Positions 2,015 through 50,564 of a DNA stretch of 64,000 bases are shown here, in pieces. The notes beneath the pieces are model-generated. The model did no database searches, had not been told where the DNA came from, and saw only the letters and a program-made list of their open reading frames with translations. The position numbers and the translations under genes are program-made. Origin of the DNA: Herbidospora daliensis (GTDB taxonomy: Bacteria; Actinomycetota; Actinomycetes; Streptosporangiales; Streptosporangiaceae); the NCBI RefSeq assembly GCF_001570585.1, contig NZ_BBXF01000004.1, forward strand, positions 1 to 64,000, in the 5' to 3' direction. Within the stretch, counting starts at the first letter, position 1. Each line of letters begins with the position of its first letter.

Positions 2015-3843
2015 CGGGCGACCTCGAGGTTGTAGGTGGCCTGGTAGAGCCGGGTGGCCGCGGCTTCGTCGGGGATCCCGGCTCCGTCGAGGGCGTCGAC
2101 GTAGCGCAGCGTCTCGTCGTCGAACAGTAAACCGACGCGGGCGCGCAGGTCGGAGCGGGCCTTGGCGCTGATGCTGCGCAGCGACTCGGCGCCGAGCAGG
2201 CCGCGCAGGAGCCGCTGCGGGAGGGCTCCGTTGCCGCCGGGGGCGTCGCCGGTGCCGTAGCCGAGCAGGCCGACGGTGAAGATCAGGGCGAGCGACTCGA
2301 CGTCGAAGGAGACCAGGCGGGCGACCGAGCGCTTCGTGACGCCCTCGGTGCGGACCAGCTCGGTCACGTGGTCCTGCCACGAGGCGACCATGCGGGCGGT
2401 ACGGCGGTCGACGTCGTCGGCCGGGCGGCCGAGGCCCGGGAGGGCGGCCAGGCGGTCGCCCGCGCCGGCGCGCTGCCGCCAGCGGGTGACGACCTCTTCG
2501 GAGGCGCGGTGGACGGCCGTGCTGATGACCGATTCCAGGCCGCTGCGCAGGGCGCCCCGGAGCGCGCCGATGCGTTCGGGGCCGTGGTTCTTAGCGCGGC
2601 GGATCTGGAGGGTGCGCATCAGGTCGCCCGACCCGGCGAAGTCCTGCCAGCGGGCCAGTACCTCACCGCGCAGCAACGAGCCGTCGCGGGTCGACTCCTC
2701 GATCTCGGCCAGGGCTCCGGAGAACGCCGCGTCGATGTCGGAGCGCAGGTCGGCGCGCAGGGCCACCTGGGTCTCCAGGTGGCGGGCCAGCGCGGGGACG
2801 CGGGCGCGGAAGCTGTTGAGCACGCCGTTGAGCGTCGCCTGGACGGCCAGCGCCCGCCGCTGCTCGTCGACCGAGAGCTCAGACAACCACATGCGCAGGT
2901 CGGCCACCTCGTCGTCGGGCAGGCGGCCGTTGGTGACGGTGGTCTCGTTGATGATGAACCGCTCCACCTCGCCGAGGCCGTACTCGTCGAGCATGCGGGT
3001 GAAGTGCTTGGCCACGACCTCGCGGGAGCGGGCCGGGACGCGGGACAGGATGATCACCAGCCGGGCGCCGCGTTCCTTGGCCAGCTTGAGCAGGCCCCAC
3101 GAGGGGGCGTCGGCGTAGCGGGCCGCGCTGGTGACGAAGACCCACAGGTCGGCGGCGTCGAGCATGCGGTGGGCGATGTCGTGGTGTTCCTCGACGACCG
3201 AGTCGATGTCGGGGGTGTCGAGGAGGGCGACGCCGTGGGGCAGCCACTTGGTGGAGGCGACCACGATCGAGTCGGATCCGGGGCCCTCGCCGGGTTCGGC
3301 GATCCGGTTGAGGCCGCTCAGCAGGGTGCCCTTGGTGAACCAGCGCTCGTCGGCCGGGTTGCAGACCAGGACGGGGGTGCCGGTGGTCGGGCGGCGTACG
3401 CCGGTGGCGCTGACGGCCTGCGCGGCGAGGGTGTTGACAAGGGTGGACTTCCCGGCTCCCGTCGATCCGGCGACGACGATCAGGGCGGGGGCGGTGCTCA
3501 TGTGGACGCGGGGGATGACGTAGTCGTCGAGCTGGGCCAGCACGGCGGCCTGGGACTTCCGGGCCTCGTCGGCGCCGGGGACGTCGAGGCCCAGGTGGAG
3601 GCCGGTGACGGCCTCGCGGAGCTGGCTGAGGGCGTCGGTCAGGGCGCCCGACACCTGCTCGGGGAGGGCGAACTCCTCCTCGTAGGAGTCGTCCTCCTCG
3701 GGAGCCGCCTCCTCTTCGGGGGGCTCGTCTTCTCGTATCGCCCGGAAGCTGAGTGTCTGCTCGCCGGGCGACTCTGGTTCTTCCTCGGGCATGGCGGCCT
3801 CGTCTGCGGGTTCGGACCGCGGTGTCTGGTTGGCAGCCTTCAT
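2011..3843 (-). CDS. Dynamin-like GTPase, partner of the downstream GTPase
   Basis: A 610-residue protein. Residues 1-60 are a very acidic, proline-rich, probably disordered leader. A G domain follows, with P-loop GSTGAGKST at about 126-134, a conserved GVRRPTTGTP switch region shared with the neighbour, and DTPD at 209-212. The rest is helix-rich with many Arg/Glu heptads. One hydrophobic segment (SLALIFTVGLLGYG) lies near residues 515-530. The gene overlaps cobA by 4 bp on one side and the second GTPase by 4 bp on the other, so all three form one operon. The two GTPases probably act as a hetero-complex at membranes. The linkage to tetrapyrrole synthesis has no obvious mechanistic meaning and may reflect shared expression only. 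Confidence 0.78.
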   Translation of the reverse strand: MKAANQTPRSEPADEAAMPEEEPESPGEQTLSFRAIREDEPPEEEAAPEEDDSYEEEFALPEQVSGALTDALSQLREAVTGLHLGLDVPGADEARKSQAAVLAQLDDYVIPRVHMSTAPALIVVAGSTGAGKSTLVNTLAAQAVSATGVRRPTTGTPVLVCNPADERWFTKGTLLSGLNRIAEPGEGPGSDSIVVASTKWLPHGVALLDTPDIDSVVEEHHDIAHRMLDAADLWVFVTSAARYADAPSWGLLKLAKERGARLVIILSRVPARSREVVAKHFTRMLDEYGLGEVERFIINETTVTNGRLPDDEVADLRMWLSELSVDEQRRALAVQATLNGVLNSFRARVPALARHLETQVALRADLRSDIDAAFSGALAEIEESTRDGSLLRGEVLARWQDFAGSGDLMRTLQIRRAKNHGPERIGALRGALRSGLESVISTAVHRASEEVVTRWRQRAGAGDRLAALPGLGRPADDVDRRTARMVASWQDHVTELVRTEGVTKRSVARLVSFDVESLALIFTVGLLGYGTGDAPGGNGALPQRLLRGLLGAESLRSISAKARSDLRARVGLLFDDETLRYVDALDGAGIPDEAAATRLYQATYNLEVAR

Positions 3844-5288: not shown

Positions 5289-6257
5289 ATGCTGCGCAAG
5301 CTGATCGTCCCCGGTCTCGCCCTCGCCGTCACCGCCCTCGCCGCCGCCCCCGCCTCCGCCCACCCCGGCAACGGCCACGGCCACGGCGCGCCCGCCGGCG
5401 GGCAGTCCACCACCGAGTCCGTCCAGCTGCCCTCGACCCCGCAGGCGGGCGACACCTACTTCGCGGCGACGCTGCTGGGCAAGAACGAGGTCCCGGCGCC
5501 GGGCGCCAAGGTGGGCGACAAGAACGGCATCGCGGTCGCGGTCTTCCGCATCCACGGCAACCAGATGGAGTACGCCATCCGCTGGGCGGGCACCGCCGCC
5601 CCCAGCGCCTTCCACATCCACCAGGGCGTCAAGGGCAAGAACGGCGACGTGAAGATCCCGTTCTTCGGGGCCGCCCTCCCGTCCACCCTCAGCGCCGTCA
5701 AGGGCGTCGTGAAGGTCGACGACAAGGGCCTGCTGAACGGGATCAAGCGGAACCCGAAGAACTGGTACGCCAACCTGCACACCAGCGAGTTCCCCGGCGG
5801 CGCCGTGCGCGCCCAGCTCCAGCGCATCCGGCCGGTCAACCTCGACTCCGTCCTGGCCAACGGCTCGCGCTCGACGCTCACCGCCATCGCCGACGGCAGG
5901 CAGGAGGTGCCCGCCCCCGGCACGAAGGTCGGCGACAAGAACGGCAAGGCCGTCTGGCTGGTCTGGGTGAAGGGCACCAAGGTCCACTTCGCGACCGTGT
6001 GGAAGAACATCGCCCAGCCGACCCTCGCGCACATCCACAAGGCGCCCAAGGGCAAGAACGGCCCGGTCGTCGTCGACTTCCTCGCCGCCCCCTCGGGCCT
6101 CCCGGCGGGCATCAACGGCATCGCCGGCACCGGGAAGGCCTCGTCGTCGGTGGCCAAGGGCATCAAGAACAACCCGAAGAACTGGTACACCAACCTGCAC
6201 ACCAGCGAGTTCCCCGGCGGCGCCGTGCGCGGCCAGCTGCACGGCGGCGGCTGGTAA
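5289..6257 (+). CDS. Secreted protein with two CHRD domains
   Basis: A 322-residue exported protein. Residues 1-24 form a clear signal peptide (basic MLRK, hydrophobic core, cleavage after AxA before HPGNG). Then come a His/Gly-rich stretch and two tandem CHRD domains of about 130 residues, each ending in the same NPKNWY(A/T)NLHTSEFPGGAVR block. Both carry FHIH or AHIHK histidine motifs in the position typical of CHRD domains, which are thought to bind metal or other ligands; the biochemical role of the family is not settled. The start has the Shine-Dalgarno AGGAGT 8 bp upstream. It is divergent from cobA and convergent with the ureohydrolase, so it is probably transcribed alone. Confidence 0.85.
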   Translation: MLRKLIVPGLALAVTALAAAPASAHPGNGHGHGAPAGGQSTTESVQLPSTPQAGDTYFAATLLGKNEVPAPGAKVGDKNGIAVAVFRIHGNQMEYAIRWAGTAAPSAFHIHQGVKGKNGDVKIPFFGAALPSTLSAVKGVVKVDDKGLLNGIKRNPKNWYANLHTSEFPGGAVRAQLQRIRPVNLDSVLANGSRSTLTAIADGRQEVPAPGTKVGDKNGKAVWLVWVKGTKVHFATVWKNIAQPTLAHIHKAPKGKNGPVVVDFLAAPSGLPAGINGIAGTGKASSSVAKGIKNNPKNWYTNLHTSEFPGGAVRGQLHGGGW

Positions 6258-9399: not shown

Positions 9400-10289
9400 C
9401 AGACGCGGGCCGGGACCGGGAAGATCTCCTGGAGCCGTTCGGTGGCCAGGGCCTGGGAATAGCGCTGGCGGGCCGTGGTGGCGGCAGCGCCGGCCAGGGC
9501 CTCCTCGTAGCGGTCGATCACCACGTCGGCCAGGCCCTCGCAGTCGCCGATGACCTCGGCGCAGCGGATGTCGAGGCCCTCGTGGTTGGCGCCGTAGGCG
9601 AGGGCCTGGGCCCAGATGCGCTCCAGGACGCCGCCGGCGAACAGCACGTAGGGCAGCACGATGACCCGCTTGGCGCCCAGGCGGCGGCAGCGCTCCAGGC
9701 CGCCGGGCACGCCCGGCCGCGCGTGGGACACGTAGGCCGTCTCGACCGTCAGGTAGTCGGCCGCGTGGGTCTCCCAGAACAGCCGCGACACGCGGTGGAC
9801 CTCGGCGTTGGCCGCGGTGCTCGGCGAGCCGTGGCCGACCAGGACGACGGCGGTGTCGGCGAGCGCGATCGGCTCGGGCTCCTCGACGAAGGCCCCGCGC
9901 ACGAACGTGGGCATGTCGGCGGCGGCGTCGGCGAGGCGTTCGGCCAGCAGTTCCAGGATGCGCGGGTCGGGGCCGAGCGGGCGGCCCAGGTCGTATCCGA
10001 GCGTCGGGTGGAGCTCCTGGGCCAGCGCCAGCGTGCCGGGGATGTCGCCCAGCGCGGCGCGGTCGCCGGTGAGGCTGAGCGGCTGGGCGACGAGGTGGTG
10101 GTGGCCGCGCGCGACGAGCGAGGCGACCGACTCGGTCAGCGGTGGGCGGGCTCCCGCGACGAAGCCACCGGAGACGTCCGCGACGTCGCCGTCGAGGCGG
10201 CAGCGGAGCCGGTGAACGAACCGGCCGAATTCGGCTACGCCGGTATCGTCATGCGTGCCGTGCCCGATGAGCAGCAGCGGCGGTCTCAT
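9399..10289 (-). CDS. cbiX: Sirohydrochlorin cobalto/ferrochelatase (CbiX family)
   Basis: A 296-residue two-lobe chelatase that inserts cobalt (or iron) into sirohydrochlorin. Each half begins with the family histidine motif: LLLIGHGTHD near residue 5 and VVLVGHGSPST in the second half. HARPG and VLPYVLFAGG are further signature segments. The start chosen, ATG 10289, puts the first GHG at the usual distance; a longer frame to 10355 adds 22 residues with no homology feel. This is the first gene of the operon cbiX-cobC-cobT-ureohydrolase. The 86 bp upstream show no clear promoter or riboswitch. Confidence 0.88.
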   Translation of the reverse strand: MRPPLLLIGHGTHDDTGVAEFGRFVHRLRCRLDGDVADVSGGFVAGARPPLTESVASLVARGHHHLVAQPLSLTGDRAALGDIPGTLALAQELHPTLGYDLGRPLGPDPRILELLAERLADAAADMPTFVRGAFVEEPEPIALADTAVVLVGHGSPSTAANAEVHRVSRLFWETHAADYLTVETAYVSHARPGVPGGLERCRRLGAKRVIVLPYVLFAGGVLERIWAQALAYGANHEGLDIRCAEVIGDCEGLADVVIDRYEEALAGAAATTARQRYSQALATERLQEIFPVPARV

Positions 10290-31377: not shown

Positions 31378-32403
31378 TTGGACACGACCACGGATGCACA
31401 ACGGATGCTGAGCATAGTATTCGCGGCCATGACCCGCCGAAGACAGGATAGATCACCCTCGCTCTTAGCGCTCCTCGACTCCTACACCCTCGCCCTCGAC
31501 GCCGCCAACCGCTCCCCCGGAACCATCCGCTCCTACGAACACACCATCCGCCTCCTCGCCGCCTACCTCAACGCCCACCAGCTCCCCCACGCCGTCGGCA
31601 CCATCGACGCCGAAGCCATCCGCCGCTTCCTCCTCACCGCCCGAACCGGATGCGACCTCGACCCCTGCACATGCCGGCTCCAACCCAGCAAGCCGGGCAA
31701 CGTCGACAAGCACCGCCGCAACCTCCGCGCCTACTTCAGCTGGCTCATCGCCGAAGGCATCCTCACCGGCGCCAACCCCATGGCCACCGTCAGCCGCATC
31801 GAAGTCCCCGACGACCCCGAGGCGCTCTTCACCGACGACGAACTCGCCGCGCTCCTCAACAGCTGCGGAGGCCGGGCATTCACCGACCGCCGCGACCTGG
31901 CCATCATGCGCGTCTTCATCGACACCGGCCTGCGCATCCACTCCGTCGCCGGCATCCGCTTCGACCCCGACGACCCCGACGCCTCCGACCTCGACCTCCG
32001 GAAGAAGCTCATCAGCATCCGCCAGAAAGGCGGGTCCCGCCTCTGGGTGCCCATCGGCAAGAAGGCCGCCGTGTCGCTCGACCGCTACCTGCGCGAGCGC
32101 GCCGCCCACCCCCACGCGGACTCCGGATGGCTGTGGCTCGGCGAACGCGGCGGGATGACCACGTCCGGCATCCACCAGATGCTGCGCCGCCGCGGCGAGC
32201 GGGCCGGGCTGAAGCGTGTCCACGCCCACCGGTTCCGGCATGGCTTCGCTGACGCGTGGCTGGATGCCGGCGGGAACGTGCAGGACCTGATGCGCATCGC
32301 TGGCTGGAAGTCGGTGGAGATGGCGGCCCGGTACGGCCGGGCGGCGGCGGACCGCCGGGCGTGGGCCGCGCATGCTCGGCTCTCTCCGGGCGACCGGATA
32401 TAG
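31378..32403 (+). CDS. int: Tyrosine recombinase/phage integrase
   Basis: A 341-residue integrase. Residues 1-170 or so contain a SAM-like core-binding domain (NRSPGTIRSYEHTIRLLAAY). The catalytic domain has the first Arg in DTGLRIHSVAG, the beta-hairpin Lys in ISIRQKGGSRLWVPIGK, HRFRH for the HxxR motif, and GWKSVEMAARYGRA with the nucleophile Tyr. The family's usual GHS is here GWK, a common variant. A CGCDLDPCTC-like Cys-rich insert lies near residue 95. The TTG at 31378 has GGGAGG 12 bp upstream; an ATG at 31405 is the alternative. It reads away from the tRNA. Confidence 0.93.
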   Translation: MDTTTDAQRMLSIVFAAMTRRRQDRSPSLLALLDSYTLALDAANRSPGTIRSYEHTIRLLAAYLNAHQLPHAVGTIDAEAIRRFLLTARTGCDLDPCTCRLQPSKPGNVDKHRRNLRAYFSWLIAEGILTGANPMATVSRIEVPDDPEALFTDDELAALLNSCGGRAFTDRRDLAIMRVFIDTGLRIHSVAGIRFDPDDPDASDLDLRKKLISIRQKGGSRLWVPIGKKAAVSLDRYLRERAAHPHADSGWLWLGERGGMTTSGIHQMLRRRGERAGLKRVHAHRFRHGFADAWLDAGGNVQDLMRIAGWKSVEMAARYGRAAADRRAWAAHARLSPGDRI

Positions 32404-47251: not shown

Positions 47252-47325
47252 GTGTCGCGACACCGATAAGCGTACTTCCACATTGAGGTGTCGCGACACC
47301 CCCGCTAGGATGGTGTCGCGACACC
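47252..47325 (+). promoter_or_regulatory. Helicase promoter with three perfect RHH operators
   Basis: GTGTCGCGACAC occurs at 47252-47263, 47288-47299 and 47313-47324; the last two extend to GGTGTCGCGACACC. A promoter TTGAGG (47283-47288) - 17 bp - TAGGAT (47306-47311) reads right, with the middle operator filling its spacer and the third just downstream of the -10. The first operator lies 14 bp before the RHH start, placed for autorepression. Confidence 0.85.
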
Positions 47326-47454: not shown

Positions 47455-48831
47455 GTGACCACCACCTACGAACCGCTGTACGACCTCGACGCAGAGAAAG
47501 CGGTTCTCGGCGCCTGCATGGAAGCGCCCGCGATCGTCGACGACGTTCGCAAAACCCTCACCGACCCCGTCGCCTTCTACCGGCCACAACACCGCGTCAT
47601 CTACCGCGCCCTGCTCGCACTGTCCGACGCCGGAAACGCCACCGACCCCATCAACGTCACCGACTACCTCCGGCGCACCGACGAACTCCGCCAAATCCCC
47701 GACCCGACCTACGTCTTCGAGGTCTTCGAGCACGGCCGGTTCATCGCCAACTACCCCGAGCATGTCGAGATCGTCGCCCGGCACGCCGCCACCAACCGCG
47801 CCACCGCCACCCTCGTCCGCGCCCTCGACCAGCTCCGCCGCCCCGGCAGCGCCGACGACGTCCAAGGCGCGCTCTCCTTCGTCCGCGACGACATCGACAA
47901 GGCGCTCGGCGACATCACCGCCACCACCAGCGCCGCCAACCCCGTCGTCAGCCTCTACCAGCCCCTCGACTGGCAGATCGCCTTCGCCAGCAAACCCGCC
48001 GAAGTGCCCTGGCTCGTCGAGAACCTCATCGAGGCCGGCCGCTCCATCGCCATCTACAGCCCGCCCAAGACCGGCAAAAGCTTGCTCACACTGGAGATCG
48101 CCGCCGCGCTCGCGGCTGGGCGCCCCGTGCTCGGCCAGGCCGCCAAGCCGCCGATGAAGGTCGTGTACGTCGACATCGAGAACACCATCGACGACGTCAC
48201 CGAACGCCTCGCCAACCTCGGCTACGGCCCGGAGGACCTGAGCAACCTCGTCTACTACAGCTTCCCCAGCCTCCCCGTCCTCGACAGCGCCGCCGGCGGC
48301 CAGCACCTCATGGCGCTCGTGAAGTACCACGAGGCCGTGCTCGTCGTCATCGACACCGTCTCCCGGGTGATCGAGGGGTCGGAGAACGACGCCGACACCT
48401 TCTCCAACCTCTACCGGCACGCTCTGGCCCCGCTGAAGGGGATGGGGGTGGCGGTGATCCGGCTCGACCACTCCGGCAAGGACCTGGAGAAGGGGCAGCG
48501 CGGCTCGTCCGCGAAGGGCGCCGACGTGGATGCGGTGTGGCTGATGGTGAAGATCAGCGAAACGGCGCTGTACCTGAAGCGGGAGATGAGCCGCGCCAAC
48601 CACGGCGTGCCGCTGATCGAGCTCCGGCGCCGCGCTTACCCGCTGCGGCACGAGCTGGCGACCGGTGGGTTACCGCCGCGCGTGCAGCAGGTTGTGGACG
48701 TCCTGGAGGAGCTTGGCGTGCCGAAGGAGGCGGGCCGGGACGCGGTCCGTGAGGAGCTTCACGGGGCGGGGATCAAGGCGTCGAACGAGACGATTTCGGC
48801 GGCGATCGCGGCCCGTAAGGCGGGGCTGTGA
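47455..48831 (+). CDS. Phage replicative helicase, DnaB-N plus RepA-type ATPase
   Basis: A 458-residue protein from GTG 47455 (GGGGAG site; ATG 47443 would add 4 residues). Residues 1-140 match the DnaB N-terminal domain (YDLDAEKAVLGACMEAPAIV, FYRPQHRVIYRALLAL). Residues 165-390 form a RecA-fold ATPase of RepA type: IYSPPKTGKSLLTLEIA (Walker A), VYVDIEN, VLVVIDTVSRV (Walker B) and VIRLDHSGKD. The end is a winged-helix-like segment (VVDVLEELGVPKEAGRDAVR). It probably unwinds the phage origin, perhaps at the repeat array just downstream. Confidence 0.85.
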   Translation: MTTTYEPLYDLDAEKAVLGACMEAPAIVDDVRKTLTDPVAFYRPQHRVIYRALLALSDAGNATDPINVTDYLRRTDELRQIPDPTYVFEVFEHGRFIANYPEHVEIVARHAATNRATATLVRALDQLRRPGSADDVQGALSFVRDDIDKALGDITATTSAANPVVSLYQPLDWQIAFASKPAEVPWLVENLIEAGRSIAIYSPPKTGKSLLTLEIAAALAAGRPVLGQAAKPPMKVVYVDIENTIDDVTERLANLGYGPEDLSNLVYYSFPSLPVLDSAAGGQHLMALVKYHEAVLVVIDTVSRVIEGSENDADTFSNLYRHALAPLKGMGVAVIRLDHSGKDLEKGQRGSSAKGADVDAVWLMVKISETALYLKREMSRANHGVPLIELRRRAYPLRHELATGGLPPRVQQVVDVLEELGVPKEAGRDAVREELHGAGIKASNETISAAIAARKAGL

Positions 48832-49223
48832 AGGACCTGAACTGTCCGGGACAGGTGCCCGGACAGGGCTCCCAGATACCCCCTGCCGCCTATGTCGGAT
48901 GTGCTCTGACCTGCTGTCCGAGCTGTCCCGGACAGTTCGGCGGACAGTCCGGGACCGGCTGTCCTGGCGGCATCGTCGCAGGTAGCGGCGCTTCGCAGGT
49001 CGTGATACCCCCCTCAGGTATTTCGGGGCTCTCGGACCTGTCCGGAAGCTGTCCGTGCGTCTCGCGTTTCTGCAGGTCGGAGCTGTCCCGGACAGGTCGC
49101 GGACAGGCAGACGATCAAGGTGCGGGCAAGGCGTCCGTCCTGCTGTCCCTGTCCTCTCCTCTCGTAAGAGAGGACAGGGATGGGACGGGCAGCCCCTGTC
49201 CCGAAATTTGGGGGAGTTCATGA
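48828..49223 (+). CDS. Doubtful open frame over the repeat array
   Basis: A 131-codon frame that begins with a GTGA overlap on the helicase stop. The predicted protein is a run of Cys, Pro, Gly, Ser and Gln, with CPGQ-like pieces produced by the DNA repeats. Third-position GC preference is weaker than in real genes around it. It is most likely non-coding sequence under the repeats, though a coupled disordered protein is possible. Confidence 0.25.
   Translation: MKDLNCPGQVPGQGSQIPPAAYVGCALTCCPSCPGQFGGQSGTGCPGGIVAGSGASQVVIPPSGISGLSDLSGSCPCVSRFCRSELSRTGRGQADDQGAGKASVLLSLSSPLVREDRDGTGSPCPEIWGSS
48842..49202. repeat. CTGTCC/GGACAG iteron-like array, candidate replication origin
   Basis: Seventeen copies of the hexamer CTGTCC or its complement lie in about 360 bp. 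Three form the 13-bp inverted repeat CTGTCC-(G/C)-GGACAG (48842-48854, 48923-48935, 49083-49095). Single sites are at 48861, 48914, 48942, 48959, 49038, 49049, 49101, 49143, 49149, 49172 and 49196. The array lies directly after the helicase gene. Such clusters are typical of iteron origins or of multi-site regulators; the origin role is inferred. Confidence 0.7.
49147..49179 (+). terminator. Hairpin at the right end of the array
   Basis: CCCTGTCCTCTC (49147-49158) and GAGAGGACAGGG (49168-49179) are perfect 12-bp arms with a 9-nt loop. Each arm contains an array hexamer. It could end the helicase transcript or be a structural element of an origin. Confidence 0.5.
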
Positions 49224-49321: not shown

Positions 49322-49869
49322 TCACCCCCATCGAGACCACATACGCCGGCCACCGCTTCCGCTCCCGCCTCGAAGCACGGTGGGCCGTCTTCTTCGACCG
49401 CCTTGGCCTCGAATGGGAGTACGAGCCACAGGGCTATGTCGTCAGCGGGCGCCCGTACCTGCCTGACTTCCGGATCACTCTGCCGACTGGCGAACGCGTG
49501 TTCGCCGAGGTCAAGAACGCCGATGTCGGCGAGCACGAAGGCGAGCACGTCGACCTGTGCCGCGCTCTCGCTGATGGGGCAGAGCTGCCCGTTCTGCTGC
49601 TGACGGGCATTCCCGCCCATCGGCTCTATCACCAGTTCACGCCAGGCCTGTCCGCCAGCTCATTCACGGCGGCGTTCTTCCACGACTACGGCCGGAAGCT
49701 GACGACCGCCGACCAGTACTGGTTCCAGACGGTCGAGCTGGACGAAGCGACCGGCGTCCTCAAGTTCACCCACGACGAGCGCGGCCTCACCGAGTCATTC
49801 GGCGAAGGGCTCGTTCAGGCTGTCACCGCCGCACGGTCGGCCCGTTTCGAGCACGGCGAGACGCCATGA
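49318..49869 (+). CDS. PD-(D/E)XK nuclease-like protein
   Basis: A 183-residue protein. RFRSRLEARWAVFFDRLGLE supplies the Glu, GRPYLPDFRI the Asp and RVFAEVKNAD the ExK of a restriction-endonuclease-fold active site. The C-terminal half (QFTPGLSASSFTAAFFHDYG) may recognise DNA. Related small nucleases are common in actinobacterial phages; their role is unclear. Coupled at both ends by 4-bp overlaps, directly upstream of the GIY-YIG gene. Confidence 0.75.
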   Translation: MITPIETTYAGHRFRSRLEARWAVFFDRLGLEWEYEPQGYVVSGRPYLPDFRITLPTGERVFAEVKNADVGEHEGEHVDLCRALADGAELPVLLLTGIPAHRLYHQFTPGLSASSFTAAFFHDYGRKLTTADQYWFQTVELDEATGVLKFTHDERGLTESFGEGLVQAVTAARSARFEHGETP

Positions 49870-50564
49870 CCCTCCCCACGAGCCTCTACCGACTGTTCGC
49901 CGCCGACGGCTCCCTGCTCTACGTCGGCATCGGCGGCAACCCCGGCCGCCGCTTCGAACAGCACCGCTCCGACAAGCCCTGGTGGGGCGACGTCGCCTCC
50001 ATGACGATCGAGCACCACCCGACCCGTGAGGCCGCACTCGCCGCCGAGCTCCAGGCCATCAAGACCGAGAACCCCCGCCACAACATCGCCGGCCGAATCG
50101 ACGACGCCTTGCCCCGCTGGGAGCACCGCCCCCTCTCCAACGGCGCCTACCTCGACACCGAAGACCGAGGCGACCACTTCTACGTCGGCATCAACCGCGA
50201 CGAGCTGGTCGACCGGCTGCACCATTGCGGGCAGTGGTGGCTGACCCCCAGCTCGATCCTCGAAGCAACAGACTTCCTCAACCAGGTCTCGATCTTCTGG
50301 CTATGGGCCGACGGCTGCCAGCAGGAGACCTTCACCGGCATCGGCAACTCCCGCTACCGGGGCGTCAACGTCCGCCGGACCCATGTCGAGGCTGCCCAAC
50401 GGGCTCTGACCGCCTCCGAGATCAAAGGGGACATCGCCCCGATCAACCGCCTCGTCGAAAGGCTCCAGCGCACCTTTCCGAGCATCGAACGGATCGACGA
50501 CATGCTCGATCGGACAGAGCTGACCGGCTACCTCGTCGAACCTGGCCCAGAGGTCAAGGCATGA
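49866..50564 (+). CDS. GIY-YIG-type nuclease-like protein
   Basis: A 232-residue protein. The first 85 residues resemble a GIY-YIG domain: SLYRLFAADGSLLYVGIGGN for the GIY-YIG strands, RRFEQH for the Arg, EAALAAELQAIKTENPRHN with the catalytic Glu and closing Asn. The rest (about 145 residues) is unassigned and may bind DNA. Next to another nuclease gene just after the candidate origin. Confidence 0.75.
   Translation: MTLPTSLYRLFAADGSLLYVGIGGNPGRRFEQHRSDKPWWGDVASMTIEHHPTREAALAAELQAIKTENPRHNIAGRIDDALPRWEHRPLSNGAYLDTEDRGDHFYVGINRDELVDRLHHCGQWWLTPSSILEATDFLNQVSIFWLWADGCQQETFTGIGNSRYRGVNVRRTHVEAAQRALTASEIKGDIAPINRLVERLQRTFPSIERIDDMLDRTELTGYLVEPGPEVKA

Follow-up and report, generated by a model that had tools for sequence, protein, structure and literature searches.

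Directly downstream of the gene for a DnaB-like replicative helicase of Herbidospora daliensis, an array of 17 CTGTCC/GGACAG sites probably serves a temperate actinobacterial phage as its replication origin, with the helicase itself acting as initiator and reading the sites via its C-terminal domain (CTD). The array was analyzed as part of a 64,000-nt stretch, which is called the window in the following and to which all positions refer. Two features of iteron-type origins were found, namely repeats clustered beyond chance and a position next to the helicase gene. The initial annotation had proposed an iteron origin with the adjacent helicase as the protein reading it, and this proposal is supported by the comparison of related loci, in most of which an array follows the CTD, by the covariation of the repeat motif with CTD residues, and by three helicases without such a tail, behind which no array was found within 600 bp. 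From sequence comparison we infer that the helicase is the initiator of the array origin; covariation suggests that the CTD reads the repeats, and its three-helix fold is a model prediction.

The array begins 10 nt past the helicase stop codon and is flanked by two co-directional genes (Table 1). Recounting yielded the 17 hexamer sites in about 360 bp directly 3' of the helicase gene that had been annotated initially, as well as the three perfect 13-bp inverted repeats. This palindrome, CTGTCC-S-GGACAG, occurs in 3 copies in the 8,523,669-bp genome, all of them inside the array. The terminal hairpin was also present, with arms of 13 bp instead of the 12 bp given before, and its stretch folded as single-stranded DNA with a z-score of -6.0. 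An enrichment of the hexamer was confirmed locally but not for the window as a whole: in 200 order-1 Markov sequences of the length of the window, the densest 361 bp contained at most 5 sites (5 in one sequence) compared to the 17 observed, while the total of 51 sites in the window was close to the shuffle mean of 47.6 (standard deviation 6.6). Therefore, the signal of the array is clustering and not an overall excess. Among 361-bp windows taken in 60-bp steps, no hexamer of any sequence exceeded 8 copies outside those overlapping the array. An equal density elsewhere, which had been named as an argument against an origin, was thus seen neither in the window count nor among the genome-wide palindromes nor in the Markov control, and the array as a chance or whole-genome repeat was ruled out by these counts. 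The second of two GCAGGTCG boxes lies shortly ahead of a palindrome. As a further observation, a ATACCCCC element is found at positions 48876 and 49005 and also within the arrays of the closest relatives L008, L017, and L018.

The helicase comprises 462 residues when starting from ATG and 458 residues when starting from GTG at 47455. Its DnaB N-terminal domain (Pfam DnaB, 2.2e-20) is followed by an AAA_25 RecA-type ATPase (1.2e-29) and by the CTD; the N-terminal domain together with the RecA-type ATPase carrying a Walker A motif assigns it to the DnaB-like class, and the best PDB matches in Foldseek were DnaB-type helicases. AlphaFold2 models reached a mean pLDDT of 88.9 for the helicase and of 87.6 for the CTD modelled alone. 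Searches of Pfam, PHROG, and PDB sequences returned nothing firm for the CTD. An identical helicase is encoded on a 52.8-kb contig of IMG/VR, the coordinates of which would place the start of the provirus near position 31405.

Over the array, an open reading frame (ORF) of 131 codons is probably not a gene. Its position-specific GC content is flat (.62/.65/.67), compared to.69/.44/.93 in the helicase gene, which agrees with the weak codon bias reported initially, and its product had no Pfam or PHROG match at an E-value of 0.01. In L008, L017, and L018, stops interrupt the frame that begins at the helicase stop codon, although a different frame is open in the first two. Of selection on the ORF, which had been regarded as a potential objection to an origin, there was thus no sign in codon-position GC or in these three relatives. 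An explanation of the segment as a repeat-rich coding or decaying stretch, in which the repeats encode a linker of the helicase tail and have no role as DNA, draws on mu1/6 and L009, where the array is translated as a Pro-rich tail of the helicase. In mu1/6, it is located inside the helicase ORF ahead of a Cys-rich end. Against this explanation, which we regard as highly improbable, the array lies past the helicase stop codon in the window, L010, L011, L013, L014, and L020, its sites are found in both orientations, and the frame that begins at the helicase stop codon is not preserved. Since the array is coding in mu1/6 and non-coding in others, the DNA element is retained regardless of the frame. 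Also, a short Cys-rich segment, zinc-ribbon-like by eye, was noticed behind the array within the helicase ORF of L004, L039, L054, and L108.

Searches with the single sequence yielded few relatives, i.e., one weak and one identical locus. Matches were found in 9 of 341 genomes of the family (including the own genome), in 10 of 345 of the order, and in 7 of 394 of the class, these three genome sets overlapping. When the CTD alone was used to search the phylum, 8 of 396 genomes were matched, again including the own one; among these was L150, a partial match without helicase context that was set aside as not belonging to the family. A search of plasmids matched 27 records, and in the 25 of these that were listed the matches lay on the N-terminal side of the query, none covering more than 44% of it. 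An eight-row alignment (A1) was used to search a viral collection and recovered 73 viral loci. Altogether, 97 loci with a helicase match were obtained, of which 82 remained after removal of 15 duplicates. The CTD was counted as present when the profile match reached at least position 450 with more than 200 bits, and 70 loci qualified. L043 offered too little sequence for the tests of hairpins and repeat density, for which 69 CTD loci were used.

In 60 of these 69 loci, repetitiveness, measured over 300 bp, peaked in the region just after the CTD, for which the better-scoring of two overlapping windows was used. The best hexamer after the CTD was present in a median of 10 copies (lowest 3), compared to a background median of 4 and a 99th percentile of 7 in 1961 windows. 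As in the window, the sites of relatives are found on both strands. The motif itself is not conserved; each lineage has its own repeat, such as CTGTCC, CTGTTCC, CTGTACC, CTGCCC, CGTTCC, GGTTCCC/CCTTCCC, CTCCCC, and rarer forms. The nine exceptions were L019, L022, L038, L040, L042, L057, L058, L063, and L071. The CGTTCC array expected for L038 was located about 3.3 kb from the helicase gene on the other strand (about 9600-9800) and followed by a Cys-rich ORF, an inversion or misassembly just past the CTD being a candidate explanation. L071 encodes a second CTD-like domain (GRP; 2092-3765) after the helicase frame and before a CTGTCCC array, possibly a stand-alone origin-reading protein. In L040, which lacks an array after the CTD, ten copies of TCAGAGA were noticed in 400 bp about 2.8 kb past the CTD.

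Further features recur behind the CTD. In 57 of 70 CTD loci, the plus strand carries an oriented SCAGRTCA box within 420 bp, often in the form AAACCSCAGGTCARAC followed by a repeat; the minus strand does so in 4 of 70, and the background is 0.066 per 420 bp. The box lies at a median of 108 nt past the CTD. With respect to the AT-rich unwinding element of iteron-type origins, only a modest dip in the mean GC content of the 70 loci was observed nearby, to 0.588 at 90-120 nt, the lowest of 50 bins. Hairpins of 11 bp or more, one mismatch being allowed, were found in 56 of 69 CTD loci compared to 129 of 1331 background windows; their centre is 140-240 nt past the CTD in 40 of the 56 loci and 337 nt in the window. 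When the viral collection was scanned at the DNA level for the box in combination with a loose repeat, 35 stretches were returned, and in 34 of them a CTD was encoded 82-203 nt upstream; in the remaining one, L140, the sequence is cut off 20 nt before the box. Contigs already found with A1 accounted for 21 stretches. Among the 14 new ones, 11 have a far-diverged helicase body reaching 113-142 bits to the A1 profile compared to 716 bits for the helicase of the window. The neighbourhood of box and helicase CTD also bears on the idea that the array serves partition, packaging, or incompatibility, being bound by the helicase or another phage protein without initiation taking place there. Clustered palindromes are known from centromere-like and packaging sites as well, and no extreme of GC skew coincides with the array. 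The box neighbour is the helicase CTD in the scan, in which partition or packaging proteins were not sought, and we consider such a function improbable.

For the relation between CTD and repeat, a column test independent of motif classes was used, in which the 6-mer similarity of arrays, corrected for ATPase identity, was compared with each variable helicase column. With 57 loci (831 pairs sharing less than 60% ATPase identity, 218 columns), column 432 reached r = 0.571, followed by 0.282 for the next best column. With 56 loci, L038 being dropped, columns 433, 448, and 432 ranked highest among 409 (0 of 100 permutations). A partial Mantel test gave 0.385 for the CTD given the ATPase (0 of 500 permutations) and 0.283 for the ATPase given the CTD. 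On an ATPase tree with 55 tips and 108 branches, from which the unclassed L019 and L022 were excluded and in which L038 was represented by its displaced array, the motif class switched 11 times. Column 433 changes on 10 of the 11 switch branches (17 changes in total, nominal p 5e-9), column 432 on 6 (7 changes, 1.6e-6), and column 448 on 8 (18 changes, 1.5e-5). These were the best three of all helicase columns on the tree, and all of them lie in the first turns of helices 2 and 3 of the model.

A table of 83 unique CTD-array pairs, from which one further pair had been dropped as too short, relates residues 432/433 to the repeat: RD goes with CTGnCC in 19 of 19 pairs, RE with CTGnCC in 3 of 3, NR with CGTTCC in 20 of 21 (exception L038), NP with SSTTCCC in 17 of 17, and SP with CTCCCC in 12 of 12. 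Eleven rows have other residues, some with weak class calls, e.g., L040, L064, and L071. Among the held-out loci with a prediction, L146 (SP) has the predicted CTCCCC, and L149 (VN), a later locus for which the classes make no prediction, has GGTTCC.

Helicases without the CTD served for comparison. Seven were chosen as controls, none with a CTD match, of which SPI1, L088, and L086 were no longer counted as tail-free, as their tails appeared winged-helix-like by eye. The tail-free L015, ArV2, and Appa had no array within 600 bp after the gene (best counts 2-5), and L087, a very remote match, had a best count of 3. Behind the remote helicase L086, six copies of AGTGCGC (about 5930-6090) are perhaps a weak array of the same kind. 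L083, L084, L085, L098, and L102 have a different C-terminal end and carry arrays of other motifs with 9-14 copies; three of them are fused to Prim-Pol, and L102 has an IclR-type helix-turn-helix (HTH; E 7.7e-5) at its end. Their sequences suggest the same logic with another reader.

Several results weigh against an origin read by the helicase CTD. SPI1 (counts 4-5) and L088 (2-6) have no array within 600 bp despite their winged-helix-like tails, which speaks against the simple expectation that an array accompanies every tail of this type. Appa carries 11 copies of CGTCGA in 392 bp about 650 nt past the helicase, inside a ParB-like gene. The exact SCAGRTCA box is missing from the plus strand of the array in the window, where only the GCAGGTCG variants occur. 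In Foldseek, the CTD obtained no firm match; the best was Fur with an E-value of 1.2, ArgR/AhrC also being listed. The extremes of GC skew were not at the array, neither in mu1/6 (extremes at 6 and 35 kb, array near 14.1 kb) nor in the prophage part of the window. With 17 diverse loci (ATPase identity below 75%), column 432 was again on top, while its maximum statistic was reached by 9 of 500 permutations and, with other settings, by 3 of 200, 2 of 200, and, using 7-mers, 11 of 200. The four motif classes were named after most loci had been viewed, and the class counts are not independent because many loci are close relatives. The held-out L147 (NR) has a CGTGCC array and meets the prediction only in part. 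Finally, CTD and array are adjacent, so that recombination moves both and could alone yield joint switches; this would leave unexplained why the residues at the helix starts outrank the remaining CTD.

A regulatory role of the array has to be considered as well. As an operator, it would be bound by the CTD or a phage repressor to control replication or downstream genes, with replication starting elsewhere. Clustered palindromic sites are typical of operators, and the array is located between two co-directional genes. It is, however, positioned at the 3' end of a gene and in mu1/6 even inside the coding sequence; typically about ten sites, a hairpin, and a common box exceed the needs of an operator, and the motif is tracked by a domain of a replicative helicase. 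In favour of a regulatory role, a separate likely operator precedes the helicase: three perfect GTGTCGCGACAC palindromes, unique in the genome, are located at 47252-47324 between the helicase gene and a small minus-strand gene, the product of which has a weak ribbon-helix-helix match below the cut-off (E 0.17). Palindromes and small gene suggest a separate control of helicase expression. Overall, we regard an operator function of the array as unlikely. For an origin read by the helicase, the following course can be envisaged. The CTD would bind the short repeats, so that the helicase collects at the origin; with 17 sites and three palindromes available, several subunits would assemble there, the helicase thereby recruiting itself. 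Strand opening might follow, perhaps in the vicinity of the hairpin or of the CAGGTC boxes, and the helicase would be threaded on before priming begins. Each lineage would possess its own repeat paired with its own CTD residues. For a more general scheme we see an even chance: a large group of actinobacterial temperate phages would use a self-recruiting DnaB-type helicase without separate initiator or loader, in which a portable CTD sets the repeat by two or three residues at helix starts. Domain and array would be exchanged as a unit, so that many types of origin arise that exclude one another.

As a rule, DnaB-type helicases reach origins with the help of separate initiators and loaders. In phage lambda, iterons are also located inside the initiator gene, but O is no helicase and DnaB is delivered by the separate loader P. 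The oriV of RSF1010 (IncQ) likewise combines a RecA-type helicase, RepA, with iterons and hairpins, but the iterons are read by the separate RepC and not by RepA. A closer likeness is offered by Staphylococcus aureus pathogenicity islands (SaPI) and other phage-inducible chromosomal islands (PICI). According to the respective reports, the C-terminal domain of SaPI Rep helicases recognises iterons directly downstream of the gene, that of SCCmec Cch2 binds repeats downstream of its operon (PMC7581432), and PICI origins are located after rep and carry iterons (PMC6092414). Here, too, the repeats directly follow the helicase gene, and covariation supports a corresponding role of the CTD. In contrast, the SaPI/PICI and Cch2 helicases are described as DUF927, Primase_Cterm/D5 type (PMC7581432), whereas the helicase in the window matched DnaB-N and AAA_25 of RecA type only and neither DUF927 nor Primase_Cterm/D5. 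Compared to what these sources describe, a CTD without firm family, a common CAGRTCA box, a hairpin, and the occurrence in actinobacterial phages and prophages also set it apart. ORF904 of pRN1 resembles it by a C-terminal winged helix, an origin just downstream with a needed stem-loop, and a repressor gene in the operon, but is described as a superfamily 3 (SF3) helicase with an archaeo-eukaryotic primase and without iterons in the parts consulted (PMC4234260). By analogy, the system of the window would work like SaPI/PICI and pRN1 without being a member, as its helicase class differs. RepA origins of extrachromosomal mycobacterial prophages are likewise actinobacterial prophage origins tied to the initiator gene, but that RepA is of plasmid type, with 320-350 residues and an N-terminal HTH, and the excerpts consulted mention no helicase (PMC7157519).

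In the open literature of PubMed Central, no description of a system of helicase, CTD, and array was found, and no genome paper on mu1/6 surfaced there. If the proposed reading is true, a DnaB-type helicase that itself carries a domain for reading the origin would constitute a minimal route of helicase recruitment previously known from other helicase classes. For a large number of poorly studied phages, origins could become predictable from sequence, and the naturally occurring pairs of domain and repeat would make a protein-DNA recognition code directly testable.

Table 1. Features of the putative origin region of Herbidospora daliensis (positions in the 64,000-nt window)
Feature	Position	Strand	Basis or remark
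DnaB-like replicative helicase, 462 aa	47443..48831	+	Pfam, Foldseek
Predicted three-helix CTD, residues 412-462 (helices 412-424, 432-441, 448-459)	48676..48828	+	AlphaFold2, covariation
Codons of R432 and D433, first turn of CTD helix 2	48736..48741	+	best motif-tracking residues
Codon of N448, first residue of CTD helix 3	48784..48786	+	third best column in tree test
131-aa ORF over the array, probably no gene	48828..49223	+	codon-position GC, family searches, relatives
Array of 17 CTGTCC/GGACAG sites	48842..49201	no strand	putative iteron-type origin
Perfect palindrome CTGTCCGGGACAG	48842..48854	no strand	genome-wide palindrome count
Perfect palindrome CTGTCCCGGACAG	48923..48935 and 49083..49095	no strand	genome-wide palindrome count
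GCAGGTCG boxes, variants of the SCAGRTCA box of the family	48995..49002 and 49072..49079	+	
Terminal hairpin, 13-bp arms with array motif, 9-nt loop	49146-49158 / 49168-49180	no strand	

Further downstream, a GIY-YIG endonuclease-like gene (49866-50564) is located behind a phrog_21138 / resolvase-like gene.
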